From: Rhododendron vialii
Lineage: Eukaryota; Streptophyta; Magnoliopsida; Ericales; Ericaceae
DNA length: 64,000 nt
Direction: 5' to 3'
Assembly (NCBI RefSeq): GCF_030253575.1
Contig: NC_080567.1
Coordinates: 15,627,001-15,691,000, forward strand
Shown: piece after piece, positions 3,547 to 48,397 of the stretch
Position numbering within the stretch: position 1 is the first letter of the stretch
Layout of the letters: every line of letters starts with the position of its first letter
Notes under the pieces: model-generated
The model's database searches: none
What the model was told of the DNA's origin: nothing
What the model saw: only the letters and a program-made list of their open reading frames with translations
Position numbers and translations under genes: made by a program

Positions 3547-6500
3547 CTATCCGTAGAACTTCTTCAAGTTGTTTGCATTCCATGACTTAGCAATGGGGGA
3601 ACCATCTAGTTTCTCCAATTTGTAATTACCCGAACCGAGGTGCTTGAGAACTCGGTACGGACCCTCCCAATTGGGCATTAGCTTTCGCTTTTTGGACTTC
3701 TCCACCACCTTTTTCCAAACAAGATCGTCAGGCTTGAACGACCTGAGGCGCACGCTCCGGTTGTAACCCTTTGCAATCTCCTGTTGGTATGAAGCGAGCT
3801 TGATCCTTGCGTTGTCCCGTTCTTCTTCGGCTAAATCGAGGTCCGAAGCAATGGTGTTATTGTTGACCGACTCATCAAAATTTTCTGTTCTCATTGTTGG
3901 GAGTCCGACTTGGAGTGGGATGACCGCCTCCATTCCGAATGCCAAGGAGAAAGGTGTGCGACTGGTTGATCGCCGAGGCGTCGTACGGTAGCCCCAGAGT
4001 ACCCTGGGCAGCTCTTCGGCCCATTTTCCTCGCCGTGACTCGAGTCGTCGCTTTAGTCCGGATGAAATTGCTTTGTTTGCCGCCTCGGCCTGTCCGTTGC
4101 CCTGGGGGTAAGCCGGGGTGGATGTATCCCATTTGATACCGTATTCGTCAAGCAGGGCCCGGTACTTCTGCCCTGTAAACTGCCTTCCATTGTCTGTAAT
4201 TATGGCGAACGGAACACCGAAGCGAGAGATTAAGTTTCGCCATACGAAGCGGATGACGTCTGTTTCTTCAATGGTGACCAGGGGCTCGGCTTCGACCCAT
4301 TTTGAAAAATAATCGGTTGCGGTCAAGAGGAACTTGAATCCACCCGGAGCGACAGGGAGCTTTCCAACGATATCCATGCCCCATTGGGAGAAGGGCCAGG
4401 GGCTGGTAAGAGGGCTAAGGTCCCGGGCCGGCTGATGGATAATGGGAGCGAACATCTGGCACTTCTTGCAACGCTTGACGAACTCTTCAGAATCCTTTTT
4501 CATCGTCGGCCACCAATACCCCTGAGTGAGGGCTCGGTGGGCGAGCGATCGTCCACCGGAGTGACAACCGCTGTCACCGGCATGAAGTTCTTCGATGATG
4601 CCCGGAACTTGATGTGGGTGCGCAACCAATAAGTACGGCCCGGTAAATGATCTTCGGTAAAGCTTGCCGTTGGGATTGAGCCAGAAGAGAGCAGCTTTGT
4701 TTCGGAGTCGGTGAGCCTCCTTTTTGTCAGTGGGAAGGGAGTCTTCCCTCAGGTAAAGGACGATTTCATCCATCCAGCTTGGACCGAGCTCTATGTTGAG
4801 TACTTCCTTCTGTAGGTCTTCGAGCTCAAAACTGGGCTTGTCAATAGAATTGAAGGAAATGGATCGGTGCCCGGTACATGAGAATGCCGAAGTGAGCCCT
4901 GCCAGGGCGTCGGCGTGGGCGTTCTGTTCCCTTGAAATATGCTCGACTCTGATTGCTTTAAAGCGCTGAATGAGCTGGACTGCGGCGCTGAGGTAGGTAC
5001 GCATGCGGTCATCCCGAGCTTCGTATTCTTCAGAGAGTTGGTTAACCACCAACTGGGAGTCGCTGTAAACGACGAGCTCTTCGATGCCAATGGCTTCGGC
5101 AGTCTTGAGTCCGGAGATCAACGCCTCGTATTCGGCCTCGTTGTTAGAGGCTGGGAAATTGATGGAGAAGGAGCTTTCGTGCAAGACACCGGAGGGTGAG
5201 AGAAGAACGACGCCTGCACCTGCGCCTCGGCTGTTGGATGCACCATCGACGTACATTTTCCATACATCTCCGTGAAAGAGCTGCCAAGCTGTGCTAGGGT
5301 TGGCCTGGAGTACTGCTTCGGAGCTCGGTGTGGGTGCCGAAGCAGATACGTTGGGCGGTGTAAGCTCTGCGATGAAGTCAGCCAGCACCTGAGCCTTTAT
5401 TGCTGTCCGAGGCTGAAAGTGGATTTCGAAATTGGCAATCTCAACGGCCCATTGTGAGATTCGGTTGGAGAGATCGGCCTTCCGGAGAAGAGATTTGAGC
5501 GGGAACTCGGTCAGGATGATGATGCGATGAGACTGGAAGTACGGGGCAAGCTTTCGGGAGGCTGAGATGAGGGCGAGCACGAGCTTCTCCAGGGGGAGGT
5601 AACGCGTCTCGGCGGGAGTCATGGTTTTGCTGGAGTAGTAGATTGGCTGGTGCTCCTGACCCTCCTGTCGGACGAGCACCGAGCTTACGGCGTGCGGAGA
5701 GACAGCTAGATAGAGGAACAAGTCTTCCTGGTCCCTATGAGTGACGAGGAGTGGAGCCGTGGAAAGATACTCCTTTAGTCGCTGGAGGGCTCGGTCACAG
5801 TCTTCTGTCCAGTTGAAGCTTCGTCGGCTGCCCTTTAGTAGTGCGAAGAATGGCTGACATTTGTCCGAGGAGCGACTTATAAACCGATTCAGAGCAGCAG
5901 CCATACCGGTTAGGCGCTGAACATCGCGCTTGTTGTGGGGAGCCGAGAGCTGATCAATAGCTCGAATTTGGGAAGGATCGGCCTCAATACCGCGTCGGGA
6001 GACGAGGTGGCCAAGAAATTTGCCGGAGCTGACGCCGAAGACGCATTTCTCGGCATTGAGGCGGAGTTTGTGGCTCTTGAGTATCTCAAAGACTTCGGCG
6101 AGGTGAGTTAGATGGTCACCGGCGCGAAGACTTTTAACCACCATGTCGTCAATGTATGCCAGCATAGTGTCGCCCAGTAATCGCTCGAACATCTTGGTTA
6201 TCATTCGCTGGAAGGTTGCTCCGGCATTTTTTAAACCGAAGGGCATGACAAGGTAACCGAAGATCCCGTGGGGGGTAATGAAGGCGGTGTTCTCGATATC
6301 GCCTTCGCTCATGGCGATTTGGTGGTAGCCCCGGTACGCATCCAAAAAGCTGAGTTGCTCGTGTCCGGAGGTGGCGTCGACGAGCTGGTCGATACGGGGA
6401 AGAGGAAAGAAGTCCTTCGGGCAAGCGTCGTTGAGGTTGGAGTAGTCGACGCAGACACGCCATTTGCCATTCTTCTTCTTGACTACGACGGTGTTAGCCA

Positions 6501-9412
6501 ACCACTTGGGGTACTGGACCTCTCTGATTGCCCCAGCGTTTAGGAGTCGGTTGACTTCTTCAATGACGGCCTCGGAGTGAATAGGAGAGGACCGTCGTGC
6601 CTTCTGTACGACCGGTCGCTTGGCTTTGTCGATGTTGAGCTCGTGGCAGATGAAAGAAGGGTCGAGCCCCGGCATCTCATAGGGGGTCCAGGCGAACACT
6701 TCAATGTTTCGGTTGAGAAAAGCTACCGTCTCGTTCCGATCAGTATCACTAAGTGAGGAACTGACAAGGAAGAAGCGGGAGCCGTCCTCGGTGATTGGGA
6801 TTGTGGCAACATCTTCAACGGTTTTGTCGTCGGGGGATCTGCCGACGTCCTCCAAAACTGGGGCTTCGGGGGCTTCAATGAGATTCACCCGGGGGGTCTG
6901 TTTGGTGCTTCGGACGGCGTTGACGTAGCACTGCTTGGCCGCGGTCTGGTCTCCGTATAAGTCTTCCTGGTGCCCGTGAGTGCCAATGAAACGCACCACT
7001 TGGTGATAAGTGGAGGCAATCGCTTTAAGCCTATGCAGCCAGGTTCGACCGACAATGGCGTTGTAAGGGCCAGGGACGTCGACCACCACAAAGTCTATTT
7101 CGAGCGTTACCGAGCCGGCACGGACAGGAAGAGTGATCATACCGATGGGCCAGACAGGAGCTCCGTTGAAGCCGATAAGGGGAACTTCGGAGGGACGGAG
7201 GTTGGTCTCGGGAATCTTTAGATCCTTGAAAAGAGAGTAGTACATGACTTCGGCCGAGCTACCCTGGTCTACGAGGACGCGACGGACGTTGAAATTGCCG
7301 ATGCGTAGCGTGACCACGAGGGCGTCGTTGTGGGGAAGCTGGACGCGGTCGAGATCCTTCTCGGTAAACGTTATCGTCCATTTGGAGCCGTCGTCGGTTC
7401 TGGGGCGCTTTGGTTCGAGGCCAACTAACATGACCTGCTTGGAGGAGGAGGCTTCATTCAACTCTGCCCGAATGACTCGAGCGGCCTCGGGGTTAAATGG
7501 ACCGTGTATGACGTGGATTGTCTGTACCTCTTCCTCGGTATGTGATTCGGTCCGCTGTGTCCGAGCCGTCGTCTTCTCGTGATCGATGAAGTTGCCGAGG
7601 TGGCCACCAGCAACAAGCTGTTCCAAGTAAGCCTTGAAGGGCTTGCATGCTGTGGTGAAGTGACCTTGCTCGCTATGGTAGCTGCATCGAACGATGGGAT
7701 TCTTGATTTTCCCATTTTCGGTTCCGAGCTTTTGATTGGGGAAGGAGAAAAAGGGCTGATCCTTCACTTGATCAATGATCCGGTAGATGGGAATGGTGAA
7801 GACGGTCTTTTCGGCGTTGAAGTCACTTGGCTTCGGTCCCCTCCTCGGCGACTGCTTGATTGTGTTGACCTGTTTCTTCGGTGTTGAGACAGGTGCGGGG
7901 GCCGGTATGGATACCGAGGTGTTCAACGCTTTTGAACTTGTAGGCTTCCCGATGCCTCTCTCTGCCTTGGATTCGATGAGCTGACACCAGCCCTCAATTC
8001 GAGTCATAAGGTCCTTCATAGAGTTCGGCTTATGGCGAGCGAGGTCGTCGTAGACTTGCTCGTCCTGGGAGGTGAGACCGAGCTTGAATCCTCGGGCAAA
8101 GATGACACCGTCGCAACCTTCTATCTCATTGAACAACTCCCAATAACGGCCGGCGTACTGCCGAAGCGTTTCGTCGTTCCTCTTACGGAGGGCTAAGAGG
8201 GAGTCGATTTCCTTCTCGTGCTTGTTGCTCGTTACGAACCGTGCCATGAAGGCGTCACAGAGGGAGTCGAACGAGGAGATTGACCGAGCCGGGAGTTGAT
8301 TGAACCATGTGAGGCCCAGGTTGCCGAGGCTTGCTGGAAACACTTTGCACAGGAAAGCGTCGTCCGAGGGTTCATTCCGAAGAAACAGAGACATGACGGT
8401 TTTATACTGAACCAGATGAGTGTACGCCTCGGTCTTTCCGTCATATTTGGCAAACTTGGGTTGGGAGAATCCTTTGGGGGGGGTAACCGAGTCGATCTCT
8501 CTTGTGAAGGGAGAGGTCGTGAGTCGCGCAAGTCGCGCATCGCGATGAGGTCGGATCGAACAGTCGGGGCCGTCTGGACGCTCAGTGGCTGTACGCTTAT
8601 TGGGGACGAGTTTGTCCAATCGTTCGTGCTCCTTTCTCTTTGGATCGATACTAACCGATTTTCTGGGAAAACGCTCCTGGCGATGATGTCGGTAGCTATC
8701 CCGAGCGGAAGCCTCGAGGCGCTCGATGACCGGGCTCCTGCTGTTTGCGCCGCCGGGGTGCAAGACGATGGGACTTCTGGCTCGGGGGCCCTTCAGGCGC
8801 TCGCGGTATCCTCTTGTCTGGATCTCGACAAGGCCGTCATCTCCCCTGGATGCCCTTGTGAGGCTAGGGGTAGATTCCCGGCCTGTCCTGCCCACAAGGA
8901 CGGAGTGGGTAGAGGAGGCAGAGACACTCCCACCACCGAGCCTGTCAAAGGCCGATGGTCTCCTTCGAAGTTGCGCAGGAGAGCGAGAACGGTCCCTGCG
9001 CGATGTTTCTTTTGGGGCTCGTGTGTCCACCGCTCTTGGTGACTCAAGGCGATCCTTCACTGAAGGGCGGGGTCTGTGCTCTAGCAGGTGACCGGCTTCG
9101 TGACTGCGTGGGGGGGTGCGACGGTTTGTTCTTCCGCCGCGGCTCCCGGAGGAATGAGATGGGGAGATGAGGAGGTGTTTGATCGCGATCCACGACCGTC
9201 GTGAGATCGTCGATTTTGCGCTCGAGATGGCGGATGTAGGAGTGGAGCTCGGAGGATGGGCCTGCGTCTGGAGCTGAAGCTCCGGCGCCAACTCCGATGG
9301 ATATGTGGGTCTTTCCAAGGGCCGCCGCTCCGCCAGAAGCCAGGTTGTGGTCCACGAGGGAACCAAGCCCGTGGGCGGTACCACCGTGATGTGCGTCGTC
9401 GATCTCCACCAT
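3547..9412 (-). CDS. Gag-pol polyprotein, Ty3/gypsy Tat lineage, with a frameshift near the gag N-terminus
   Basis: The open frame 9384-3547 codes 1,945 residues but begins at a GTG; the likely start is ATG 9412 in another frame (MVEIDDAHHG, then a short coiled coil). Domains in the 1,945-residue frame: gag about 310-480; CX2HX4HX4C knuckle at 567-580; protease VDQGSS at 705-710; reverse transcriptase about 960-1130 with YIDD at 1077-1080; a first RNase H about 1187-1345 lacking the usual first Asp; archaeal-type RNase H about 1375-1500 with D1380, E1418, D1442, D1492; integrase with an HHCC zinc site 1601-1642, catalytic D1671, D1731, E1767, and a GPY motif at 1908-1910. The two N-terminal frames overlap at a run of seven G (C on the coding strand) at 9110-9116, so a one-base indel there is the likely break. 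Confidence 0.93.
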
Positions 9413-9475
9413 GTTTGATTCTGGACGTTTTAACGGAGCAGAAGGGGGGAGGTGAAAGTTGAAAGAATGGCTAGA

Positions 9476-15900: not shown

Positions 15901-18576
15901 AAAATGTGCTTTAGAAGTCTGCATAACAAATAGGCTTGAAGATTAATACGTCAACACTTTTATCTAGAATCCTCAACTTGGTCATAAGCTACAGCAGCTC
16001 TTCAGACGTAAGTTAGAGAAGTACCTCTGCAAATCTTCCTTCGATGGAGGAAGAAACAGGAGTTTCCTATGTGAGAAACGAGATCTCACTCTTTTTTCCA
16101 AGAGCTGATCAGCATCCTACATGTTGTTAGAAATAATTTATCAATTATTAGTGTTCTCTGCCAATTGCAGGACATTTTTGTGAACCACCAAATTCAATTT
16201 TCATGTTTAGCAATTATCTGGAACATCTCTCGTTTCTGACAGGACTAAATTAAACCCAGAAACATTAAAAAAGTGAAGATACATACCAGTCGGGAACTCA
16301 CACCAATTACAACAGCTTGTGAAGTTAGAGATTGCATTGCGTCGAGCAAACTATAAAGTAGTCGTTGTTTACCCTGAGAAGTGCGAGACAGGTAAAGCGT
16401 GTCACATCTAGCAACAGAAACGCAGAGCCATAATAGCCCATAGGGTTTCTCTGAAAAAAGGGAGTTTAATAGTTACTAATCCACCAAACTGCACCAAATG
16501 ATCAAGTACGATTAAACAATCATATATGCACCCAGAAGAAGAAGGAAGAATAAAAAGGTGATGTCAGTTCAAAGATTCAGGAATGCAAACAACAGAAGAG
16601 AATAGAAACAAACTTAAGATCTTACCTGGGCAAAGAGGTCAAATTCATCCAGTACGAAAATGACTGTTTTGTGTGTTAATCCACATTCCCTAGCAACACG
16701 ATATGACAAATGAGCATATATATGCATGGCAAATGCAACCAGCCCTGAAGTGTCTGATGGAAACTACAAATTTTGGATGCATGCCGACTTACTTTAACAT
16801 TGATATCATGAACTGGGTGTTATCATCAAAGGATGCCTGTAAAAACATTATGTTGACATTACAAATACTGAATCAATTATATTCCAAGCAAATTGTACAT
16901 TCTGAAATGCGTTAGTCATGTTACCATTTTTGAGAATAACAGTTTATGTTGACATTACAAATACTGAATCAATTATATTCCAAGCAAATTGTACATTCTG
17001 AAATGCGTTAGTCATGTTACCATTTTTGAGAATAACAGTTGATGTTCCATGCATAATTGTCGAGCAATTTCCTGGATAATAGAAAAGAAAGTAAAGGTAA
17101 CATAAAAAAGCATCAAAGAGAAAAACAAACATACAGGACAAGTAGAACTTTATTTTCCGTACTATTAAAAGGAATGTGGTAACGCTTTTAGTTGAGCTTC
17201 CTAAGAGAAGAGCCGCAATGATGTATATGAGATGCATATAAGCAATATGAAAAGTGTGACCATAGAAAGGCATTGATCTCTAACAATGCAGCCCAGGCTT
17301 GACTTGAATCCCACGATTTAGTAGAATCCCAAGATTTCTTATTCTTTCGATTGGGAATGAATTTGCAGCGAAACATGAAATTCAAATATATATGATGAAA
17401 AAAACAAGTGCAGGGAACATCAAAAAAGATAAACAACAAACGAGTATGCGAGGTTATCAAGATGAACCTTGAGTGCACAATTGTCGTCACTGTGTAAAAG
17501 CCCATTCAGCTTTATCTGAAACCGTCGCAAGATGAATCAATATAGTGAAAAGGTAAAAGACTCACCAAATATGAAAATCTCAAACGAAATAAGGGACACA
17601 TCACCATTCACCACGGTTGTTTTCTTTATAGAAAAAACAAAAATAACAAGCGAAGAAGCATGATTGGTATTCTCCCCCATGCATTCAATATCTAATCTTC
17701 CCAGGAAAAAGTAAAAGCTGAGCAGAAGCATACCACTGATATCGTGCCGGGATATTCTTTCAATACCTCTTCAATGACAAGCTCTAACACCTAAAAAGTA
17801 CGAAGTATCAGACAACAGATTAAAAAACAAGAAAACCAAGGCATTCTTCTCTATTCCATTCGATAACTAAATTGGGTTATCCATGAACAAGTAATCTCAA
17901 CAATTAACTACTCCCTCCGTTCCAATTTGTTTATGTATTTTTGACTTTGTCTTGTCCCAATTTGTTTGTCTGTTTGACTTTTAAATGAACAAAACTCCTT
18001 TTTTGCCCTTACTTTTTTTGAAATAAAGTAACTTTTCAAAAAAGTCGAAGGGTAAATATTGGAAAGTAAACTACTTTTAGGTGTAATCATTAGCGGAGTG
18101 ATTTTGGCACTCCCCAAATTGATAACCACGCTCCCAAGATTTTGGCAAATCAATTTTGGGGAGTGCCAAAATCAATTCCCAATCATTATGCTCCCTATTC
18201 CATTTGATAAGATAACTAAATTGGGTTAACAAACTTATCCATGAACAAGTAATCTCAACAATTGTTGATTATTACCGCATTTTTACCGCAACCTCGTGGA
18301 CCGAGGAGCAGAACAGAGTTGTTAGATGCCTCAGTGACCGAGCTCGATACGATGAACTTCAACTTGCTGGAATCAAACCAAAACAATGTCAATCGAATGG
18401 GGTGGAAGTGAAAAACACAGGAAACAGCGAGGGGATAGGGACCTGTAGTTGCTGTCGGGAGAGTGGGCGAAAGGAGAGAAGACGAATCTAGGGTTGCAGA
18501 GTCTGTTTCGAAGGAGGATTAGGGCTTCCCTTGCTAGGTCTTCCCGTCCCATTGTTTGCTTGGGGTTTTGCTGCAT
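12932..18576 (-). CDS. ORC4: Origin recognition complex subunit 4, 16 exons, intact
   Basis: AAA+ subunit of the nuclear ORC, which binds origins and loads MCM helicases. Exons: 18576-18443, 18366-18276, 17790-17734, 17515-17468, 17071-17021, 16836-16793, 16689-16626, 16373-16287, 16116-16025, 15918-15837, 15090-15005, 14909-14800, 13727-13635, 13556-13492, 13404-13261, 12967-12932. All junctions are GT-AG, phases agree, and the sum is 427 codons plus stop, close to the plant family length. Walker A (GPRGCGK) is in exon 2, Walker B (FVLDEFD) in exon 7, and exon 8 carries LLYSLLDAMQS. The later exons carry the expected C-terminal motifs (NVETGLLSIDNF, QRQPKLE, LELYILVCMRRLE). ATG 18576 is used; ATG 18552 (MGREDLAREA) is an equally good start. 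A MULE lies only 170 bp upstream. Confidence 0.95.
16848..17039. repeat. 96-bp tandem duplication across the ORC4 exon 5 splice donor
   Basis: Two nearly identical 96-bp copies lie head to tail (about 16848-16943 and 16944-17039). The unit contains the last 19 bases of ORC4 exon 5, its GT donor and adjoining intron. The real exon keeps the copy at 17021-17039; the other copy leaves a second, intact-looking donor in intron 5. Confidence 0.9.
17853..18261. mobile_element. CTCCCTCCG-type MITE in ORC4 intron 2, flanked by about 60-bp direct repeats
   Basis: The insert starts TACTCCCTCCGTTCC at 17909, a terminus common in plant Tc1/mariner-like (Stowaway-type) MITEs. It includes a hairpin: GATTTTGGCACTCCCC near 18101 is inverted near 18157. 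Host sequence TATTCCATTYGATAACTAAA... occurs on both sides (17853-17905 and 18197-18261), much longer than a TA target duplication, so a second event such as unequal exchange or template switching is likely. Confidence 0.55.
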
Positions 18577-20524: not shown

Positions 20525-20755
20525 TCCGGAACAACTTAAAAATTAAATATTTATTTTATATTTTTAAATTAAAAAATTGTGTAAATAAAAATTAATTTTT
20601 AATTTTTTTTTGCACCGTATAAAAGATCTCATCGAGATCTTTCAAACAAGATCCATATTGCATATTTTTATATTTCAATAAGCCTATTATTTTTTAACTT
20701 AAAATTGCCTTCTTAAAAAATAAAGACTTATTTTACGTTTCGGAACGGGGTTTAA
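20525..20755 (+). mobile_element. AT-rich MITE-like repeat, copy 1 of 3
   Basis: AT-rich block with the core AAACAAGATCCATATTGCAT. The same core, with similar flanks, occurs reversed near 37385-37600 and again near 46676-46875, so it is a dispersed repeat. Termini not resolved. It lies inside the Pack-MULE. Confidence 0.5.
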
Positions 20756-21020
20756 ATGTGATTTTGACGGATCCTTTTATAGAAAAATGGGGGAATGGTT
20801 TGCTTGAAGTCCATGCCTATGAGGTTTGTCCAAGTAGGGAAGCAGCCGACGGGTTCCAATACAGACTCAGGTTCAGTCTAGTGTCAATCCCATCCGGTCA
20901 AGTCCAGTTTCGTTTTTGTGGGCCCATTGCGGGATCAGATTGGAAAAGTTCATTTTGTAGAACTCGTAAGGTTCTTGGAGATGGAAAAAAATAATGTTCT
21001 CTAAATGCAACAACTGGTGG

Positions 21021-27200: not shown

Positions 27201-27810
27201 ATCCGTGGGAATCCAATAGCCTTCGTGAATGGTTTGTTTGATTATATCTGTAATGATATTGAATGCTATGTTATTTTGAGTAGCTACTTCAAAACTCTTG
27301 CAATTGATCAAGCTTTTTATGTTGGTTTGAATTTTGTTTGGTGGCCGGTATTTGCAACGCACTTCTTGCTACTCGTAGCCGATTAAAATTTTTATCAATT
27401 ATAGACAAAAATGCCCTTATTCAGTTTGACCATTATACCTCTAAAATCTCATGTTATTTGACCATTTTACCCTCTTACATAATTCATTACATACAACCAC
27501 AAAAATCATCTCTTGTCCATCCCTCCTTCCCTCCCAGAACATACAACCACAAAAAATCTCCCCGTCCATCCCTCCCTCTCGAAACATCTCCTCCCTTCCC
27601 CATTCAAACTCCTCCATTTTCATCCCTACCCAGCTGTCATCACCCACCACAAGGCCCCTCCTACCAGCAGCCAAGTCTGCCTATCTTCCTCCTCTCCTCT
27701 TCCTCCTACATTGTCAATGGAAACCTCGATTGCTTCTTTTCCCTCCATTGATAAACAAGAAAAGGTTGACCCATCAATATACCACAATTTGGAGTCGGAA
27801 GATCACACAA

Positions 27811-30800
27811 ATGGATGTTGAGAAACATGTCACAGATGTTGTAGTGACGGAGCAAAAATCGTAGCAAGAGGTAAGCCTGCCCATTTCAATTTTAGAAGCC
27901 CTCCATTTTCAATTTCAGTTTTGGCCCGACACAGTTGGACACGCAGTGCCAAAACTTTACTAACTTTTCGGACTCTAATATCTGAATTATGTACAACTAT
28001 TCGGATATTAATATCCGAATTTATTGCCAGTTTTCAGATATTAATATCTGAATGAAACTGCAGAGAATCCTGCACTTACAGTTGGATACACAGTACCAAA
28101 ACTTTACTAACTTTTCAGACTCTAATGTCTGAATTATGTACAACTATTTGGATATTAATATCCGAATATTGTCAACATTGTTGGGCTCTTATATCCGAAT
28201 TTAGTGCCAGTTTTCAGATATTAATATCTGAATAAAACTACTTAGAATCCTACACTTACCTGGTTTGTCTTTGAGTGTTACAGGGTGACACTTCAACACT
28301 TGGTAGTTATGTAGGGCTATCGACTATACCTACTTCGACTTGTCCTCCATACGATTATACGGAGCATTTTACAACGGAGACGGTGAGTATTTTTTTTGAT
28401 AGAGTGTTTATCTTGTGCAATCTTATATTACGGGCTATAATTTTTTGTATGTGTGTGTAGGTTTTTCCATCCGATGAAGCGTTGGTAGATTGGATAAGAT
28501 GCACTGGTAAACAACACGGGTTTATCATTGTGATTAAGGGTTCTGAGAAATGTATTAAGAATCGCACACCTAGGATGAGGTTTTCATGTGAAAGGAGTGG
28601 TAAGTATATGCCGTTTGTAAAGAAAGTTGATGGGAAGGAGGTAGCTGTAAAGAAGAGAGTGCGGTCCACGGGCACCAAAAAATGTGAATGCCCATTTGAA
28701 TTGAAAGCTGTAAAGGGCAATGATGGTTGGACTGTCTCTGTCCATGATGGCACCCACAACCATCCTCCAGCGGTGTACTTGGAGGGTCATTCGTATGCCG
28801 GGAGGTTGTCGGCAGAGCAGACTAGCACGGTGGTTGATTTGTCAGTTGCTTTGGTGAAACCCAGAGAAATCCTAACCCATTTGAAGGTTCAAGATCCTGA
28901 GAACGTAACGTCTATCAAAACCGTGTACAATGTACGACAAAAGTATCGAGTGATAGAGAAAGCTGGAAAATCTCAAATGCAACATTTGTTGGATCGGCTA
29001 GAAAAGTACCACTACGTTCATTGGACCCGTGGGAACAAGACTCAGAATGTCACGGAGTTGTTTTGGTCTCCCCCATCTGCCGGGGAGATGTTACGTGCTT
29101 TTCCCCACGTGTTAATGATGGATTGCACATACAAGACGAATAAGTACAAGTTTCCTTTGCTTCAAATTATTGGTGTAACATCAACGGAGATGACTTTTTG
29201 TGCAGCGTTTGCTTTCATGGAGTGTGAAAAAACGGAAAACTACACTTGGGTCTTGGAGAAGCTAAAAGGCATGATGGATCCCAACGCGCTTCCGTCCATT
29301 ATTGTCACGGATAGGGAGTTGGCGCTTATGAATGCCATCACAAATGTTTTCCCTCATGCTACCAACCTCCTATGTAGGTGGCATATTGGCAAAAACGTAT
29401 TAGCCAAGTGTAGAAAGATGTTTGATGACAAGATGTGGGAGGAGTTTATTTGCAGTTGGGGCCTAGTCGTCCTTTCATCGAGTGTTGCATAATACGAGGA
29501 ACGCCTTTGTGTTTTGAAGCGTAATTTTGAAATGGTTCCTGCAGCACTTGAGTACGTCGAGAAAAATTGGTTGGTACCTTACAAAGAGAGGTTTGTAGGA
29601 GCTTGGACGGACAAAATCATGCATTTTGGAAACCTAACAAGTAACAGGTAAACGCTTCATTCGCAACTCTGGCATTTTCCTTAATATTCATGTTATTCAC
29701 GCATTTTTGGGAATTTTCTTATATTTATGTTATTTGCTATGGTTAATATCTTGCCATATTTATTCATAGGGCGGAGAGTTCACATTCGCAACTAAAAAAT
29801 CATCTTGAAAACTCACAATGCAATTTTGATACTATATGGGAGAAGATTCACAGATTGATGTTGTTACAAGTTACTGAAGTCAAAGCTTCGTTTGAGAAGA
29901 GTCTTAATTCTATACAACATGATTTTAGGACAGCTCTATTTGATAGGCTAAGGGGAGTTGTTCGTCGAATGCCATGACACTTGTTTTAGTGGCATCCCAT
30001 GAAGTCGAATGGTTTGTGGAATCGAAGCATCAGTGCGAGTGTTCTTTGAGGCACACACATGGTTTACCTTGCGCTCATGAGATTGCTCCTTACAAGATGG
30101 CAAATATCCCCCTACCGATTGAGTTAATCCACGACCATTGGAAAAGGCTTTCTTTGCTTTCACCCCAGAATGAGGGTTCGATGGAGGAGACGCTTTTGGC
30201 TCACTTTGATTGTTTTTACAACAAGTTCTTAAGTGAAGATCAATATGATGTAAAGCTCAATTATGTTAAGAAGATGCAAGAGCTTGCTCATCCGAAAACC
30301 AGTACTCTCCTTGAACCCAAAGTGAATGCACAACCACGCGATCGAAAGTCAACGAAAGAAAAAAATGCAGCCAAAGAACAAAATTCGACGCGTAGGGATC
30401 CTTCGGAGTTTGAGCATGTTCTAGCCTCCCCTAAGCCCATTAAAGAGAAACCGCGGCGCAATGTGAAAGGGAAAGCAAAAGTTCCAGTACAACTTTTTAT
30501 ATGCCCCTTCATCAATCAGTTCCCGGAAACAATAAGACCTTACATAGAATCGATCAAGGATGTTGAAGATGATGGGAATTGTGGGTTTCGGGCAGTGTCG
30601 GACTTCATGAAAGGCATGAGTGGTTAATGGTAAGAAGTGATTTGCTGAAAGAGTTGGAAACACATTTACACCTTTACGAACAAGTGGTAGGGGGGATCCA
30701 GAGGGCTAAGGAATTACTTCACATCTTGTCATGCTATGAAAGTCCGGCGCCACAGGAACATTGGATGACAATGCCAGACATGGGTCACATCATAGCATCC

Positions 30801-31204
30801 GCTTATAATTGTGTCCTTGTCCATTTATCAAATGTTCAATGTCTTACATTCCTCCCCCTCCAATCGAAGCCTTTACCCTCCATGAAACGAAAGGTTATTG
30901 CTATCGGGTTTGTTGACGGCGGACACTTTGTACAGGTATTATTTTGGTAAATGATTTGTTGTCATCTATATAATGAATTGTGCTCCTTAGGTCCAACTTA
31001 ATTTGTCTTTTATAAGTACCTAATGCAATTTGATAGGTATTCCTAAAAAAAGGTTCCCCTATGCCGCCAATAGCTTGCAATTGGAAAAGACATCGTCTTT
31101 CTATCGCTAAAAATTGGGATGCAGCACATGTTGCGGCCATTCAGAAGTTCAACGAGATCATCGGCGTTGACGTAGCAACAAAGGAGGTCATCCATGTCAA
31201 TTAG
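27811..31204 (+). pseudogene. MULE transposase (FAR1/MuDR-type) fused to an OTU-like cysteine protease domain, broken
   Basis: Exons inferred from splice sites: 27811-27870, 28284-28382, 28461-29647, 29770-30935, 31037-31204. The N-terminal zinc-binding region (CECPFELK...HDGTHNHP) would bind DNA. The MULE transposase core follows, with Asp in MMDCTYKTNKYKFP and IIVTDRELALMNAI and the CRWHI motif. A SWIM zinc finger (CEC...CAH) lies in exon 4, then a Lys-rich linker, then an OTU-like domain with DDGNCGFRAVS (Asp/Cys site) and GGHFVQ (His site) split by the last intron. Defects: TAG at 27862, TAA at 29490, a frame change near 29965 and another near 30612, just after the catalytic Cys. It is a dead copy of an autonomous-type gene of about 890 codons. 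Confidence 0.85.
27960..28240. repeat. Palindromic GGATATTAATATCC array, left
   Basis: Repeated units such as TCGGATATTAATATCCGAAT and CAGATATTAATATCTGAAT, mostly self-complementary, in the first intron of the transposase gene. Related arrays lie at 31290-31810 and 35518-36095 in the same element, so these may be subterminal transposase-binding sites. Confidence 0.7.
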
Positions 31205-32168
31205 CCATTTTTAGATTGAGAAACGATTTAATGTGTTGTATTATATAATGTGTTCTAATGTTATGAAAATTGGATGATTACGTCTGCTTGTAGTTTTCGG
31301 ATCATCAAGAAAATTCTTATACTGTATTTCTGTTTGAAAATTCATAGTTGTCAAGTCCGTGACATTCTGTTCATAAACAAGAATGGTGTCATGCCATCTC
31401 ATAGTTTTCATTTAGTTCGGAAATTAGAATCTAATTAAAGGTATACAAATAAGATATTAAAGTCCGAACATGAGTATAAATTTCGGATATTTCTTTCTGA
31501 ACTTATTAATCCAATTCGAACATTAGTATCCGAATGGTGTTAGGCTATGTCATAGTTTTCCTTCGGTTCGGAAATTAGAATCCAATTAAAGGTATAAAAA
31601 TCAGATATTAAAGTCTGAACGTGGGTATAACTTTCGAATATTTGTTTCCGAAATTATTTATTCAGTTCGAACATTAGTGTTCGATTGGTGTTATTCTATT
31701 TGATAGTTCTCATTCTGTTCGGAAATTAAACTCCATGTACTGGTATATAAATCAAAAATTAAAGTCCAAAACTTGTTATATATTTCGGATATTTATTTCC
31801 GAATTGAATTTTCTCCGCATGAATGGGCTGTTATGGACGAAAAAGAGTGTAGAAATTAAAAGGAAAAATTAAAAATTAACTCCCTTATTTATTATTGGTG
31901 AAAATGGGATGTAATTCTTCCTCGTATAACGTGCCAACATGAAAATATACATTTGCAGGAATTTTAGTCCTCGTAAAACGTGTTCGTGTCCAAAAATTCA
32001 ATGATGCTGCCATTTTTATATAGTAAGTAAAAAATGGGTTATTTGGAGCAAATTTATTCCTCGAAATACGTGCTGACAGGACTATTAAATGACACCCAAG
32101 ATTTTGTCAAATAAGACAACGGATTTTGTGTAGAAATTTTTTGACATGACTATTCAATAAAATTTCAG
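31205..32168. other. MULE interior between the two OTU-like pieces, with palindromic array
   Basis: Holds the middle array of TCGGATATTAAAGTCCGAA-type repeats (31290-31810), repeated blocks of about 130 bp around ATAGTTTTCMTTYRGTTCGG, then AT-rich DNA. No coding exon is recognised before the acceptor at 32167-32168. Confidence 0.55.
31290..31810. repeat. Palindromic TCGGATATT array, middle
   Basis: Degenerate units with TCGGAAATTAGAATC, AGATATTAAAGTCYGAA and TTTCGGATATTT; three larger blocks of about 130-140 bp can be seen. It follows the stop codon of the transposase-OTU gene. Confidence 0.6.
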
Positions 32169-32423
32169 ATTGCCCCACTACGATATCCGCCGCTTCCCCC
32201 TGAGAGTCAACGTTTGATTGCGCTCGGACACGTTAACGGTGATCACTTTGTAACGATACATTTGCGACCAAATTCCCCCATCCCGCCTATTGCAAGGAAT
32301 TGGTATATACATCACTACTCATTCGCGGATGGATGGAATATACAATATTCAAACAAGATCGAAGAGTTTAAAAACATAGTGGGGAACGATGTGGCAACGA
32401 CGGACATAATCGAACTAGACTAG
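32169..32423 (+). pseudogene. Second OTU-like C-terminal exon in the MULE
   Basis: Follows an AG acceptor (TTTCAG ending 32168) and reads 84 residues to TAG at 32421. HVNGDHFVTIHL and PIPPIARNW match in order the C-terminal pattern of the main gene (FVDGGHFVQ, then PMPPIACNW), so it carries the His side of an OTU-like domain. No Cys-side exon is seen nearby. It could be an alternative last exon of the transposase gene or a remnant of a duplicated gene. Confidence 0.6.
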
Positions 32424-33409
32424 GTTGGCTCGAAGGACTTTTATGTAAAATTTTAGTTCATAGAATCTTATTATAAAATATGAAATTTATGCAAACTCTT
32501 GTTTTTGGTAGTGTTCTATGTTTGTCTACAGCATTGTCGGTTCGTACGGCACTCCTCATTTAAATCTAAATTTTGACATACGAGTATTGTGTAGCGAATT
32601 TCTGTGCCTAGGAAAGTATCAAGAATGATTCAAACCAACCAATATACGTTTAGATGCCCTACTTAGCATTCATATTTTAACGGTATCCAATTATCACAAA
32701 TATCCTAATAGTTATCCGCAATAAAACAAAAGTCATTCCACCACGGAAAGTAGTTCATAAACCATGGCCATAAAGTGTCTAAAATAAATACAAGGCCATA
32801 AAGAGTCCATCAAAAATAAGTCATAGAACATCAAGTCTCAGGTATGGTCACGGCGCCGGCACCTAGTGTAACGACTTGAGTAATGATCCGAACTAGGGCC
32901 TGCTATGCTCGCTTCAGCAGCCTCTGTTCCCCTCAAAGTCCTCTGCACTTGAACAAGTTCTTGTCGTAGTTTATACGGGCAAGTTGAAGTCATAGCCCTA
33001 GTACGACCCAAAACACTGTCCAAAATAGCCAAAGCCGCTGCATTGCGCTCTTCTGCACTCTCGGTATACGGCACCTCTACGGGACAGGGTGAGACCCTGA
33101 AGTGGGAGACCGTCCTAAACCAAGGAAGGTAGCTGACGCCCTCTCCCCCGTCCTTGTCCTCTCCCCCGTCCTCGGCCTCTCCCCCGTCCTCTGTCTTGTG
33201 TCGTTTCCTGTATATTGCAAACAATAGTTTAGTCTAATAAATGAATTATAAAATGAAACATAAACGAAAAATTCTAGAGTAGTAGTAGTAGTAGTTGAGT
33301 AAAATATATCTATCCAATTCAATGATAGAAATACAAAATCGTATTCTAACTTTCATGTACCTCGTCCTCCTGTTGATCGGATTCACGCTCATTCTCCCGT
33401 ACATCAACA

Positions 33410-33510
33410 TGTGGCTCATCCTCACAAATTTCAGTATGTGGCTCATCCTCCCCTACATTATCATGTGGCTCATCCTCCCGTAGAACAGCATGTAGCTCAT
33501 CCTCCTGTAC
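33410..33510 (-). repeat. About 30-bp coding tandem repeats
   Basis: Repeated ATGTGGCTCATCCTC at about 30-bp spacing, coding on the minus strand for EDEPH-type 10-residue repeats in the opposite-strand MULE gene. Confidence 0.75.
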
Positions 33511-33589
33511 CTCCGAATGTATCTCAACATCCACATCCTTCTCTACCTCAACATGTTGCTCAACCTCCACATCCTCCTCTACGTCCGAA

Positions 33590-34045
33590 TGTACCTCAAC
33601 CTCTTGCCTTTGCCCTTGTCCTCGTCTTTTGCCTCGTTTCCTTTCCAAAGTTAAAGTTTGCTCAGCCTTCCTCTTCCTTGCAGAAACGGTAGGAGGAACT
33701 CGTTTCATTTCCTATACATTGCAAACAATAAGTTAGAACCGTAGTTGTCAAAATCGTACGATTTCCACAAAAACGATACGAATCTATACATGAATCAAGG
33801 TTTATCACATTATTGCATTTGACTAATATGAAAACACATACAAAACTATAGTATTTATTTTCCTACTAGGTACTAAAGTCTACCTCACGATGTTGCTCAA
33901 CCACCACATCCTCCTCACCCCCAACCTCTTGCCTTTGCCCTCGTCCTCGTGTTTTGCCTCGTTACTTTCCAAAATTAAAGCTTGCTCAACCTTCCTCTTC
34001 CTTGCAGAAACAGTAGGAGGAACTCGTGTCATTGTATTTTCTGTA
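33590..34045 (-). repeat. Duplicated exon, period 324 bp
   Basis: GTAGGAGGAACTCGT and the surrounding 130 bp occur at about 33590-33720 and 33880-34045. The right copy has a one-base change in length (GGAAAGTAACG against GGAAAGGAAACG) that shifts its frame. The duplication includes the splice acceptor side. Confidence 0.75.
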
Positions 34046-35517
34046 CATTACAAACAATACATTAGTCTAACGCTTGAATTAAAGGTAGGTGAATTGGATA
34101 CTAATTTTTGAATAAAGATACATCAATCGGTGTCACACCCCGCGTCTAGAAACACCAAAAACGAAGTTTAACAAAGAATAAACTATAGTGTCAGGTAATA
34201 CCAACGACAGGCCACATAAACCTTGGCTATAGAATTATATCAGCATCTATCAATGGTAACATGACAAAAACTTTCCATCAATAAACTTTTTACTTTCAAG
34301 CTCATAAGAGAAGCATTAAATTAGCATAAGACTTGCACATGTAATAAAATATGAGACAAGTGTCAAGAAAACCCCACCTCTAACTTCTACACAAAAGATT
34401 CACCAACACGTCGCTCACGGCCTACGTATCTCAGACGACCTTGGAACCTCGTTAACACCTAGCACACAATTGATATCACCAAATCACCTTTACAAAAAGA
34501 AAAAATCAAGTTTACTTGCACAAAGCAACATATGAATGCATGTCCCTCCCAAATAGAAGACTCAAAGTTGTATTTTTAAAGACTAATCCGTACAGAGTTA
34601 AGAACCACGAATTTATAAGATCAAATTAGATATATAGAACAGCAACTACTCAAAAAATTAGAATAATACGACCTCGTTAGGTCGCTCAATTAATTCCACA
34701 AACTCATACCACATGCTATGGTCAAAGTATTTCCAGCAGTGTCACACCAATTTGTAAAATCTGCCAAGATTAAAGTATACACCCAAATGACTTGGGATTT
34801 GGTATAACTCATAATAACACATCAAAGTTCATCCTTGATTTTTCCCGGAATTTTATAAGCAAGAGAACCAACTCAAATTCAATCTCAAAGTCAGAAATTC
34901 TGTGCAGGAAACACAGTTTTTCAGCAGAGCAGTCTGTGATCGAATATTCATTACAAATCGTGTACTTCATATTTTTTGATGATTCCATCGCCAAAACAAC
35001 ACCAACTTAACTATCTTTGAGACTCAAAAGGACCCATAACCAATAAACTTGTCTAAGTATAACAAATTTGATGAAAAACGCAGCTTTGGATGCTGCCCAG
35101 ATTTTCCAAAATTTCTCAACATCAATAGTAGTAAGCAACTTCAAAATTCTACAAGTTCATGCTCATAATCCATCTATATACCAACCAACATGCATCAATC
35201 TTGGGTTTCCATGATCAAAATCATAGTATCCATACCAATTAACAATATTTGAGAATTTAAGATGAATTAGGTATAAAATCACCATGTAAGCACTATAGAA
35301 CTCTAATTCTTAAATCTCTTCCATGTAGGTTGATTCTATATGCACATATTCATCAATACTCATAGTTTAAGGAAGATTTCTTACCACAAGAAGAGAAATT
35401 TTCAGATTACATGTCAAACTCCAAGAAATTACTTCAAGTTCTTCAAGCCAAATTAGGGTTTTCCTATTATTTTTCAATGGAGAAGAAAGAACTCCGAGTG
35501 GGGTAATGTTATGAATG
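34046..35517. other. MULE interior, unassigned
   Basis: AT-rich, no coding exon recognised. From 34133 the sequence GGTGTCACACCCCGCG begins a stretch of different texture that may be a separate small insertion. A segment near 33736-33800 (GTAGTTGTCAAAATCGTACG) resembles the end of the hAT MITE found at 51321. Confidence 0.35.
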
Positions 35518-36095
35518 TTTATGGGTTCTCACACAATCGGATTCTAATGACTGAAATAGAGGGGACAAATCGGACTCTAATGTCCGAATGGGGTAAAATA
35601 CTTTGGATATTAAAATCCGAATGAGGCAAAACATTTCAGATATTAAATTCCGAATGACTTTACCTTACAAATTCAGCTACATATTAAAATTCAAAATTTT
35701 TGTCAATCATTCTTGGACAATGTCAATGGTTTGTGTCACTGTCTAATCGGTTCACATCATATGATGAAAACGTCTAGAGTGAAAAACTTACGAAGACCGA
35801 TTACAGAATTGGGGTAAAATACATACACGACTCAGGTATAATTTAAAGTCCGAATGTGATCAAATATTTTGGATATTAAAATTTGAATGAGGTAAAAAAA
35901 TTCAGATATTACATTCCGAATGAGCTATGCTAACAAATTTAGCTGCTGCTGTAGTACATAGGGGCCAATCGGCCAATTGGATACTAAAATCCGAATGAGG
36001 CAATAAATTTCAGATCTTAAAATCCGAATAGGGGCAAACAATCAGACTTTAATATCCGAAACTGTGGAAAACAAACGGACTCTAATGTTCGATCA
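35518..36095. repeat. Palindromic GGATATTAAAATCCGAAT array, right
   Basis: Units such as TTGGATATTAAAATCCGAAT and CAGATATTAAATTCCGAAT, spaced about 30-40 bp. It lies 650-1,230 bp from the right end of the MULE, a mirror of the left array, which is 620-900 bp from the left end. Confidence 0.65.
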
Positions 36096-36761
36096 AATTT
36101 GAAATACACGAAATAGCAACATACTTACTGTGTGTTTCTCAAAAAAATTCAAACTAAAATTGAACAAAAATAAAAAACACCCGCGTAATAACAAGATTCA
36201 AAAATTTACCAATGTTCAACTTCTAAATAGTTGGTGATGCCGGTGTGTTGTGCTCTCTTCTCACACCTTCTTCGCCTCAAAGTTGTATTGCTATTGTGGT
36301 GTGGTGAGAGTGGTGTTGTGGTGGCTGTGGTGGTGACTGATGGAGGAGAAGAAGAAACGGGGCAATAGGAGAAGAAGAAACGGGGCAATAGGAGAAGAAG
36401 AAACGGGGGAAGGAGAGAGAGACGGGAGGTGGGCCTGTGGGGTGGGGCTTGGTGGTGGCAGTAATGGTGGGTAGGTGGGTGGTGGCGGTAATGGTACCCG
36501 TGGGTGGTGGGAGTCGACTGGAGCTGTGGATGGACTGGAGAGAAAGAAAACCTAGGTTAGAAAAGGGAACGAACGGAAGAAGAAGGAATGGGATTGTTGG
36601 GTTATATGTATGTTATGTTTATTGTATAGAAGGGCAAAAAGAGGAGTTCAGGAATAATTTATTGGTTGTAAGTAGCAATTCCTTATAAGGTGGTGGTTTG
36701 TAGGTAGCAATTGACTGCGAGTAGCAAGAATTGGGTTGCAAATAGCGGCCACCTTTTGTTT

Positions 36762-37384
36762 TGCTTGATTTGTTGAGTTATATCTTCAATTGAGAGTAAG
36801 CGATATTAGTGTTGATAGTGCAAGCAAGTTCTACGTTATCGTCCGTCAATGCATTTGATTCATTTGCATACAGATTTCAGTCCTTTAAAGTTGGACCATT
36901 TTCAGAATTTCAATATACACTGGTCGACCAGGAAAAACAATTACACACTCCTCGATAATTTATTTTAGTCGTATTCAAAATCGTGTTGCACCGTGCCTTC
37001 AGGCACGGGCTCAATCCCTAGTATTACTACAAATTGCAACTGAATGAGAGGATTTTCTTGCGAACGTATAAATAGAGTCATGTACCATGAAATTTTTTTT
37101 CCTGACTACCAAAAGCGATTTATTTCATTTATGACAACATGACAACCAGAAACATAAATACATCAGCATCCCCATGGAAGCAGAAATATACAATTGATTT
37201 TCATGTATAAACCTCAACATAATGCACAAGTGCTAAATATGATTATCTTTTTCCACTAAACAACTACAAGATATATATCTATAAAAACGTGAAGCTCCAA
37301 AAGTGTTTCCTTTCTTCCAAAAATAACCCTCAAAAACACCCTAAATAATTGACCCAACCCAATTAAGGCTCCGTCGTGGAATCA
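36762..37384. other. Unassigned intergenic DNA
   Basis: AT-rich host DNA right of the MULE target duplication. Nothing recognisable. Confidence 0.4.
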
Positions 37385-37600
37385 AAAAAAATTTCTTATT
37401 TTTTAAGAAGACAATTTCAAGCTAAAAAATTATAAGTTTATTGAAATCTAAAAATATGTAATATGGATCTTGTTTGGAAGATCTCGATGATCTCTTTTAT
37501 ACGATGCACAAAAATTTTGAAAAATTAATTTTTATTTATTTTATTATTAAATTTAAAAATGTAAAATAAATTACTTATTTTTTAAAAAATTTTCTGGATG
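37385..37600 (-). mobile_element. AT-rich MITE-like repeat, copy 2 of 3
   Basis: Reverse-oriented relative of the block at 20525-20755: ATATGGATCTTGTTTGGAAG here is the reverse complement of the core of that copy, and similarity extends over about 150 bp. Confidence 0.55.
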
Positions 37601-39612: not shown

Positions 39613-41290
39613 GAGTGCTAGAATGGTTGATGATGTTGTTGAAAGGAAAGGGTGGAAACCACTAAAGCCAGCAAGAGGGGGGCCGGATATATCTCACCAG
39701 TACTTTGCCGACAATTTGTGGTTTTTTTTTTTTTTTTTGTGGGGGGGGGGGGGTGAAGCAGCTGATAAGCAGGCTGAGGCCATGGCTAGCATCATGAGAA
39801 GGCTCTGTGAGACTGCTGGCCAAGAAGTCAACTTGGCTAAATCTAAGATGTATGTGTCCCCAAATGTACGTGTGTGTGGGGTGGGTGGGGGGAGGGTGAA
39901 GCAACTGATAAGTAGGCCGAGGCCATGGCTAGCACCATGAGAAGGTTCTGTGGGACTGCTAGCCAAGAAGTCAACTTGGCTAAATCCAAGATGTACATGT
40001 CCCCAAATGTACATGTAGGTAGGAAATTTCTAGGCAGGGCAAGTTGAGTTTAAACAATTGTTGCAGTTTGCTAGGTAACCAAGGCTGGTTGGGCTTAGTG
40101 GTGTCTTTAGGGACAAGAGAGGCTGTTGGACGTTCAATTATTCCTCATCTGCAGATTGAAGTTGATTCAGAAGTAGCAGCGAACTTGATCAAGAGGAGAG
40201 CTCTTGCAAATTCCCCTCACAAGTTGATGGAGGAAGAATGTAAAGAAACCATGCCAAAGACATGGAAGGATATTCTACACGTGGAACAAAAAAAACCCTA
40301 CTCATTTTAGCATATTTTTTTAGAAATGCGAGCTTAAAGGTGGGAAAGGGAAAGGAAATTTCTTTTTGGCAGGATGTTTGGTTTGGAAATGAAAGTCTCA
40401 AATCAAATGTCCCAAGATTATATACTTCGGTCCTAGCCAAAGATGAAAATCTATGTCACATATATAAAAGGAGAGGTGAGGATGGAATTTGGAACTTGCT
40501 TTTTAGAAGAGGTTTGTTTGCTTGGGAAGAAGAAGAACTCCAAAGACTGAACCATATTTTGACTGCTAGGCCATGTGCTCAACTTGTAGCAGAGATGCAA
40601 TGGTATGGTGAGCAACTACAGACAATCTTCCCTCTATCAAATCTCTATATGATATTTTGGAATCAGAAAGCACTGGGGTCTGGGGTCTATGTATCGCAGT
40701 GATGTGTAAATGGAGGAACGTAGCTACCCCTAGAGTTCAGCTTTTTGGATGGTTGACATGTGCCAGAAAGGTGAAGACATCATCACTATTGTCTTTCTTT
40801 TTTTCCTTTTTTTTTGGATGATCCGCCATCACTATTGTCTAGAATGGGTATTATTGAAGACAATTAGGACTCATTATGCAAATTCTGTGGTAACAGTCGG
40901 AAGATGATGGAATTTGTGGACAGACTGGATGAAATGGTGGGGGTGCTCGTGGGCTTCTCCTGGTTCAATTTCAATTTTGTTCAGATGGTGGAGAGGAGGG
41001 GAAATCAATGGAAGGTCAAGCACAATTATAAAGGCAATTTGGGATGCTATTCCTCTTGCTATCATTTGGTTTGTTTGGAAAACTAGGAAGGAGCTCTTGC
41101 TTGAGGTGACTGAACCGATATGGGGTGAACTGGGTCTAGAAAAATTCTCCTCCAAATTCATACTCGGTAGGAGACATGATTTGCGGGATGCAAAGTATCG
41201 AGGGAACTTGATTCTATGCCTTGTAATTTGGGATTTGCCTCTTTTTTCTTCTTTTTGTTGTTCTCGATGACTTAGTACATTTGTAGCTTT
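39613..41290 (+). pseudogene. Degenerate L1-like LINE fragment
   Basis: Pieces in several frames follow LINE order: reverse transcriptase (GGPDISHQYFADN, then AGQEVNLAKSKMYVSPNV), an RNase H-like scrap (IEVDSEVAANLI), the region VGKGKEISFWQDVWFGNESLK, a zf-RVT scrap (TPRVQLFGWLTCARKVK), and a C-terminal block (AIIWFVWKTRKELL). Stops and frame changes separate them, and the FADD-type active site reads FADN. T18 and G14 homopolymers interrupt the RT part. Confidence 0.8.
39753..40015 (+). repeat. 143-bp tandem duplication within the LINE RT region
   Basis: GTGAAGCARCTGATAAG at 39753 recurs at 39896, and similarity continues through AGAAGTCAACTTGGCTAAAT. Two copies, about 90% alike. Confidence 0.8.
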
Positions 41291-43047: not shown

Positions 43048-43962
<915 letters not shown>

Positions 43963-48271: not shown

Positions 48272-48397
48272 AATTATGGTCCAATAATGTTGTGTACACA
48301 CATAAGTAGTTATGTAAACCAAGAGTTTAGTTGGAATTATGGTCCAATAATGTTGTGTACACACATAAGTAGTTATGTAAACCAAGAGTTTAGTTGG
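48272..48397. repeat. 63-bp perfect tandem duplication
   Basis: AATTATGGTCCAATAATGTT...TTTAGTTGG occurs twice in a row (48272-48334 and 48335-48397) without visible differences, so it is recent. Confidence 0.92.

Follow-up and report, generated by a model that had tools for sequence, protein, structure and literature searches.

A degenerate Mutator-like element of Rhododendron vialii in which the transposase is joined to a predicted OTU-type cysteine protease

Why would a DNA transposon of a flowering plant carry, at the end of its transposase, a domain that resembles a deubiquitinase? The question is raised by a 9.4-kb copy of a Mutator-like element (MULE) at 27340-36753 of a 64,000-nucleotide stretch of the Rhododendron vialii genome (RefSeq assembly GCF_030253575.1, contig NC_080567.1, positions 15,627,001 to 15,691,000 of the forward strand; hereafter the window, in whose numbering coordinates are given). 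The copy is delimited by 45-bp terminal inverted repeats (TIRs), the left at 27340-27384 (+ strand) and the right at 36709-36753 (- strand), which are identical at 39 of 45 positions, a score reached by none of 200,000 random 45-mer pairs from the window. Immediately outside them lies an exact 8-bp target-site duplication, TTTTGTTT, at 27332-27339 and 36754-36761. A preliminary description of the locus had drawn a 9.4-kb element with TIRs of about 45 bp and an 8-bp duplication, and these boundaries hold. We judged membership among the MULEs by TIRs, a duplication of about 8-11 bp, a MULE transposase domain and a SWIM zinc finger; the first three are all present, and the element is a degenerate MULE DNA transposon copy.

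The transposase gene lies on the + strand and, from tblastn alignment to relatives together with splice signals, has five exons. Exon 1 (27717-27870, located by tblastn with the relatives P0001 and P0003 and followed by a donor GT at 27871) is broken, and exon 2 occupies 28284-28382. Exon 3 (28461-29647) encodes a FAR1/WRKY-GCM1-like Cys-His finger, recognised by eye, and the RNase H-like catalytic domain of MULE transposases; in the Pfam scan PF10551 matches 28461-29489 with E 9.6e-28 (97 bits against a cut-off of 27.6), in agreement with the FAR1/MuDR-type transposase proposed earlier, and a ZSWIM1-3 RNaseH-like family matches the same exon with E 2.6e-14. Exon 4 (29770-30935) carries the end of the transposase, a SWIM-like motif, a linker, and then the Cys part (DDGNCGFRAVS) and the His part (GGHFVQ) of an OTU domain, just as the preliminary description had read them, and two pieces of the exon match our OTU profile with i-E 2.3e-15 and 2.7e-52. 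Exon 5 (31037-31204; i-E 1.1e-15) encodes the C-terminal end of the OTU domain, and P0003 is 98% identical to the window over 31037-31198. Where the earlier reading had a SWIM finger, we see by eye a SWIM-like C-x-C...GLPCAHE motif upstream of the OTU; the Pfam scan of that piece gave no SWIM match. What had been presented as a transposase-OTU gene stands as a fusion, corrected to five exons in a broken copy. In-frame stops interrupt exon 1 and exon 3 (TAA at 29490-29492), and the frame shifts once in exon 1 and twice in exon 4, where the second shift comes just past the OTU Cys motif. The window copy of the gene is dead. There is no splice boundary in the window between the SWIM-like motif and the OTU, and since that motif, DDGNCGF and GGHF all lie in exon 4, transposase and OTU share one exon.

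Is the C-terminal part truly an OTU domain? A read-through query that included it, its broken joints bridged by X, retrieved 526 proteins, and the figures given here refer to the best 120 of these. The top match, P0001, also from R. vialii, is predicted as one uninterrupted chain of 921 aa and shows 90% identity over 100% of the query. A profile built from the OTU domains of 15 relatives matches 106 of the 120, although this is a biased share of MULEs because the query already held the OTU, and 83 of the matches span at least 140 of the 186 profile positions. Searched against the PDB, the same profile matches VCPIP1, OTUD5 and OTUD3 (E 1.7e-4 to 9.8e-4), and the predicted structure of one relative retrieves OTU structures. 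The DGxC Cys motif and the downstream His motif are both present in the window, and the OTU fold is found in the relatives. The catalytic Cys is kept in 61 of 62 complete OTU domains of relatives, the His likewise in 61 of 62, and among all 106 OTU-positive proteins the Cys is kept in 97, the His in 90 and both in 83, the remainder being truncated or altered there. The OTU assignment with catalytic Cys and His, first made by eye, is thus upheld by the profile, the modelled fold and the residues, and the C-terminal domain is predicted to be an OTU-type cysteine protease and a putative deubiquitinase.

Plant MULEs with a protease of another type were reportedly described by Hoen in 2006 and van Leeuwen in 2007, that protease being Ulp1. 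The Ulp1-carrying plant MULEs are named KAONASHI, and Ulp1 has a SUMO-protease fold with the residue order His-Asp-Cys. The element studied here is like them in being a plant MULE that encodes a cysteine protease of the ubiquitin/SUMO world, and differs in that its domain has the OTU fold with Cys then His. We rejected a Ulp1-type protease as an identification for this domain: no Ulp1 family was found in the Pfam scans of window pieces or of P0001, and Cys before His is the wrong order.

How general is the fusion? Among the named sources of OTU-positive proteins are Rhododendron, Citrus, Melia, Cannabis, Glycine, Actinidia, Aquilegia and Tetracentron, as well as the monocots Platanthera and Acorus, and the transposase-OTU fusion is present in both eudicots and monocots. 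For order and co-divergence we used the 51 proteins that have one complete OTU and the transposase core, the other 69 of the 120 having a part that is incomplete, duplicated or too widely spread. The OTU is downstream of the transposase in all 51 of these testable proteins, and the distance matrices of the two parts are correlated with r 0.818, a value that 0 of 1,000 permutations reached. From these predicted proteins, most of the related flowering-plant proteins found keep transposase and OTU joined. The same evidence bears on the idea that the OTU is a passenger, an optional fragment of a host gene picked up in Pack-MULE style and unneeded for transposition. The capture of pieces of host genes is a known tendency of MULEs (PMC6446971), and a cluster of 36 member sequences represented by P0005 lacks the OTU. 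Moreover, a second, divergent OTU fragment at 32169-32423 (+ strand; OTU profile i-E 6.3e-26), shared at 89% identity by P0002 of R. vialii, resembles debris; it is the His half only (NGDHF), and a Cys half for it was not found in the window. The presence of the fusion in both eudicots and monocots, the catalytic residues that are mostly kept, the fixed order and the co-divergence all speak the other way, and we disfavour the passenger reading as very unlikely.

Transposon proteins with a built-in protease of this kind have precedents. Ginger1 transposases carry a C-terminal OTU or Ulp1, for which a role in transposition is proposed (PMC2836005). Ginger1 is like the window element in joining a DNA transposase to a C-terminal OTU-type cysteine protease, but has a Gypsy-integrase-like transposase and CCGG/CCGT-type duplications and belongs to animals, whereas a MULE transposase, an 8-bp duplication and a plant host are seen here; we rejected membership of Ginger1, as the transposase matches MULE. 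Helitrons and Helentrons likewise have a transposon protein with a built-in deubiquitinase-type domain, OTU and/or VTD, and for the VTD domains deubiquitinase activity was shown (PMC9741609, PMC6431247); their protein is the rolling-circle RepHel, in contrast to the DDE transposase here. The nearest printed precedent seen is the Hydra MULE MuDR-6_HM, for which Table 1 of PMC6446971 gives 'Ovarian Tumour Gene', although this is a cnidarian element and one table entry. The plant rows of that table (Jittery, MUDR, VANDAL and others) have no OTU entry in the part seen; the window element's 8-bp duplication and N-terminal finger fit the entry of the plant Jittery sub-group, for which an 8-bp duplication is given. 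The main text of PMC8599713 contains no mention of 'OTU', and no account of a plant MULE with OTU was found in excerpts of the open-licence literature, a scope that leaves subscription papers and Repbase outside. The preliminary remark that similar frames occur in plant databases while no such system is described fits the plant findings, and has to be read beside the OTU of Ginger1, of Helitrons and of one Hydra MULE that are in print. The transposase-OTU fusion is therefore of a known kind.

What would the OTU do for the element? Its use in transposition is supported by the fusion, by the mostly conserved catalytic residues and by the recurrence of such domains in Ginger1 and Helitrons, and because most relatives keep the parts joined, the transposon likely uses the OTU to resist host ubiquitin control. 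The reading that we favour, tentatively and at somewhat less than an even chance, is that the OTU, fused to the transposase, would act in cis, taking ubiquitin off the transposase and off proteins at the DNA that it holds, so that the transposase would be spared turnover while the element moves. Here we infer the enzyme activity, ubiquitin and not another modifier as the substrate, the transposase or its close neighbours as the target, and protection from degradation as the effect.

A number of observations weigh against this protection in cis. The argument for action in cis is drawn from the fusion itself, and the activity of transposon OTU domains is still to be assayed according to PMC9741609. 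Of 15 members, one matched the Pfam family PF02338 (E 0.036) and six matched Otubain PF10275 (best E 0.014), and from these weak scores the domain appears distant from characterised OTUs; Ser or Tyr stands at the Cys site in 5 of the 106 OTU-positive proteins. The weak scores and the replaced Cys would suit an OTU without catalytic activity, or one that reads ubiquitin and serves just to tether the transposase to ubiquitinated proteins, a reading that we hold to be unlikely considering that Cys and His are each retained in all but one of the complete domains despite a median OTU identity of 0.40 among the 51 proteins. Further difficulties lie in the short models, as 14 of the best 120 proteins are without OTU (P0005, P0008, P0011, P0013, P0050, P0056, P0081, P0087, P0088, P0091, P0092, P0099, P0103 and P0111). 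When placed on P0001, whose OTU starts at residue 719, six of them end at 655-667 and four at 603-611, the others ending at 555, 697, 699 and 723, so that 10 of the 14 stop within two narrow zones. P0005 (R. vialii, 667 aa) is a complete transposase from the first Met to residue 667 and ends in the linker. The narrow end zones may mark splice sites that the gene models ran through, or else truly shortened proteins; given P0005 and the two zones, such shortened proteins may exist and some copies may not require the OTU, as P0005 in particular warns. P0005 is also the largest among the close Rhododendron clusters listed.

Could transposase and OTU then be separate neighbouring genes that were joined by gene prediction? 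The preliminary description had named intact relatives with two separate genes as an outcome that would undo the fusion; the first half of this, a transposase that stops before the OTU, is seen in the minority of 14 of 120, P0005 included, and a separate OTU gene paired with it is shown for none of them. A second search, with the OTU profile, found 263 proteins, and in the best 120 of these 112 OTU-only models reach the OTU start. The 53 that begin fewer than 30 residues upstream of it, a further point against protection in cis, and the two end zones of the OTU-less models are what separate genes would lead one to expect. However, in 11 other models the start lies 30-59 residues upstream of the OTU and in 48 it lies 60 residues or more upstream, and a linker-like motif is present in 32 of the 112, so that the longer ones look like pieces of broken fusions. 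The single exon of the window copy, unbroken from the SWIM-like motif to the OTU, and the same order in 51 of 51 proteins also disfavour separate genes, and so does the co-divergence, which alone would be compatible with neighbours. We therefore regard separate genes as extremely improbable, though P0005 and the two end zones remain, and we keep protection in cis by a fused OTU as the favoured reading.

Several relatives combine the two parts with other domains. In P0026, P0028, P0029 and P0031 (Prunus, Malus, Argentina, Rosa) an AWS-SET methyltransferase domain is followed by the transposase and then the OTU, and P0103 (Rubus) has the SET-transposase form without OTU. The junction, LGAKSRGFQ...TSSRGSGVGS, is near-identical across the Rosaceae genera, and the Rosaceae SET-MULE-OTU protein is a candidate for a domesticated gene. 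P0071 (Phlomoides) is arranged in a similar order, and its linker is long. In Actinidia (P0018, P0019, P0140) an FHA domain precedes FAR1-MULE-OTU, and a PB1 domain stands before an OTU of the same family. In public databases many transposase-OTU proteins bear the name 'PKS-NRPS hybrid synthetase cheA-like' or else 'CHGG_01239-like', which is likely a propagated misannotation.

The preliminary description had also noted a gene on the opposite strand. It is present, and we correct it to the tail of a plant mobile domain (PMD) gene. The tail, the C-terminal part of a PMD protein, is at 32841-33134 (- strand) and is 85% identical to P0121 and 88% to P0122, the PMD proteins of R. griersonianum and R. 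simsii. Upstream of it on the same strand lie an exon of basic/acidic repeats at 33361-33711 (P0129, P0130, P0132), a duplicate of the start of that exon at 33878-34035 (D10; 92% identical over 72 nt), and a presumed first exon at 36227-36307, which is of low complexity and has a weak match to P0123 (52% over 27 aa). A query of the joined exons found 14 proteins, all from Rhododendron. Among relatives that share the tail, Pfam places PF10536 in P0121 (3e-12) and P0128 (4.9e-15) and not in P0125; the Pfam scan of two opposite-strand pieces of the window gave 0 families and so no PF10536, and tblastn (E <= 1e-3) with the 14 relatives and with P0079, which has a full PMD, found no PMD body in the window. 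In R. molle, the transposase Rhmol09G0082400 (P0013, its model ending at the OTU start) and the PMD-tail relative Rhmol09G0082500 (P0125) have consecutive locus tags and lie on contigs of equal length, which suggests that the two belong to one element. The model P0079 runs transposase, OTU start and full PMD together into a single protein, all on one strand. In its complete form an element of the family likely has, opposite the transposase gene, a further gene for a PMD protein. That PMD genes can stand antisense to MULE transposases is already in print (PMC6446971, in its Table 1, and PMC5418596), and the likeness is that of a PMD-family gene opposite the transposase; the difference is that here it is joined with an OTU-fused transposase and that the window has only the PMD tail. 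An anti-silencing role of PMD in MULEs is a speculation of PMC5418596, according to which host members of the family act in silencing.

The non-coding parts of the element hold a further feature, a 20-bp palindrome, TTCGGAYWTTAAWRTCCGAA, with 23 copies (<=4 mismatches) inside the element and 0 elsewhere in the 64-kb window. At <=3 mismatches the count is 18, where 0.04 copies would be expected, and with 5 mismatches allowed one match appears outside the element, at 40382. Thirteen of the 16 adjacent gaps of <=70 bp are exactly 33 bp. The copies form three arrays: array A (27967-28232, 6 copies and one more with 5 mismatches) in intron 1 of the transposase-OTU gene; array B (31416-31803, 8 copies and 3 more with 5) between that gene and the second OTU fragment, within three 151-bp tandem repeats (31381-31833); and array C (35536-36060, 9 copies, with a further one of 5 mismatches at 36074) in what is presumed to be intron 1 of the opposite-strand gene. 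The intron placement of array C comes from the P0123 model, which joins 36307-36227 to 33732-33583; in another model, P0133, the stretch 36541-36083 next to the array is read as protein. An insertion of 1,405 bp within the MULE (34131-35535, TG...CA, with a 5-bp duplication ATCGG at 34126-34130 and 35536-35540) is likely a solo long terminal repeat and adjoins the edge of one palindrome copy. Arrays of a motif in non-coding parts of the element recall VANDAL elements, MULEs in which a short tandem motif in introns and upstream regions is bound by VANC (PMC5735166), with the difference that a 20-bp palindrome mostly at 33-bp spacing stands here in place of YAGTATTAY and that no VANC protein is recognised, the two opposite-strand pieces matching no Pfam family. 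Muta1 of Aedes aegypti (PMC5225508) is likewise a MULE with an 8-9-bp duplication and subterminal tandem repeats, but these are 12-bp units inside the TIRs. A complete element likely carries such arrays in introns of both genes, where a DNA-binding protein encoded by the element would dock on them.

We found no support for selection for palindromy within the arrays. When right halves were exchanged among the 23 copies, dyad pairs proved no better kept than in the shuffles (163 of 230, where the shuffles average 165.9 and 77.5% of the 2,000 reach at least the observed number), and a pairing of 9 out of 10 is reached by only 4 copies, all of array A, and by 5 unrelated sites outside the element as well. 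Together the 23 copies have 46 CpG positions, of which 24 still read CpG; of the 22 that have changed, 21 now read CA or TG. This fits the decay of methylated CpG, but the changes may also have been inherited through duplication.

The arrays and the PMD tail give some weight to the main alternative to protection in cis, namely that the OTU acts on chromatin: the transposase finger would bring the OTU to the element, where histone ubiquitin would be removed and silencing weakened. A transposase with a Cys-His finger is indeed joined to an OTU fold, all 23 palindrome copies are confined to the element, in parts read as non-coding, as are the targets of VANC in VANDAL (PMC5735166), and the PMD of the opposite-strand relatives belongs to a family with host members in silencing (PMC5418596). 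However, binding of the palindromes by the transposase finger is conjecture, their dyads pair no better than in shuffles, and the arrays could be drifting minisatellites, so that we consider action on chromatin possible but improbable. A bolder version can be imagined, which we rate as decidedly unlikely, in which an angiosperm-wide clade of MULEs would carry a counter-silencing kit of OTU-fused transposase, opposite-strand PMD and palindromic docking arrays, these lying in intron 1 of either gene; docking would be by the transposase or the PMD, and the OTU would strip histone ubiquitin, reopening every array-bearing copy. If true, the kit would be a deubiquitinase-based counterpart of VANC anti-silencing.

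Other features of the window lie outside the element. On the - strand, 3547-9429 is one open frame of 1,960 aa, by eye a Gypsy-type gag-pol polyprotein. Inverted repeats of 171 bp at 20587-20757 and 37362-37532, 80% complementary, flank the MULE, and a pair of 145 bp at 43055-43199 and 43807-43951 (85% complementary, 607 bp apart) resembles a small foldback-type element. Tandem duplications at 16848-17039 (96 bp) and 48272-48397 (63 bp) are perfect, and are for that reason likely recent.

With Ginger1, Helitron and MULE, the transposon machineries whose mobilising protein is joined to a deubiquitinase-type domain number at least three, which suggests that ubiquitin may be a general checkpoint on transposition. 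In plants the transposase-OTU family occurs in crops, with Citrus, Glycine, Malus, Prunus and Camellia among the named sources. As uninterrupted predicted proteins exist, the idea of protection in cis could be tested by one change of the OTU Cys in an excision assay, for which OTU-less transposases such as P0005 are a natural comparison. Finally, FAR1-family transcription factors derive from MULEs (PMC8599713), which makes the OTU-bearing MULE lineage a plausible source of domesticated genes, and the Rosaceae SET-MULE-OTU proteins are a candidate for such domestication.

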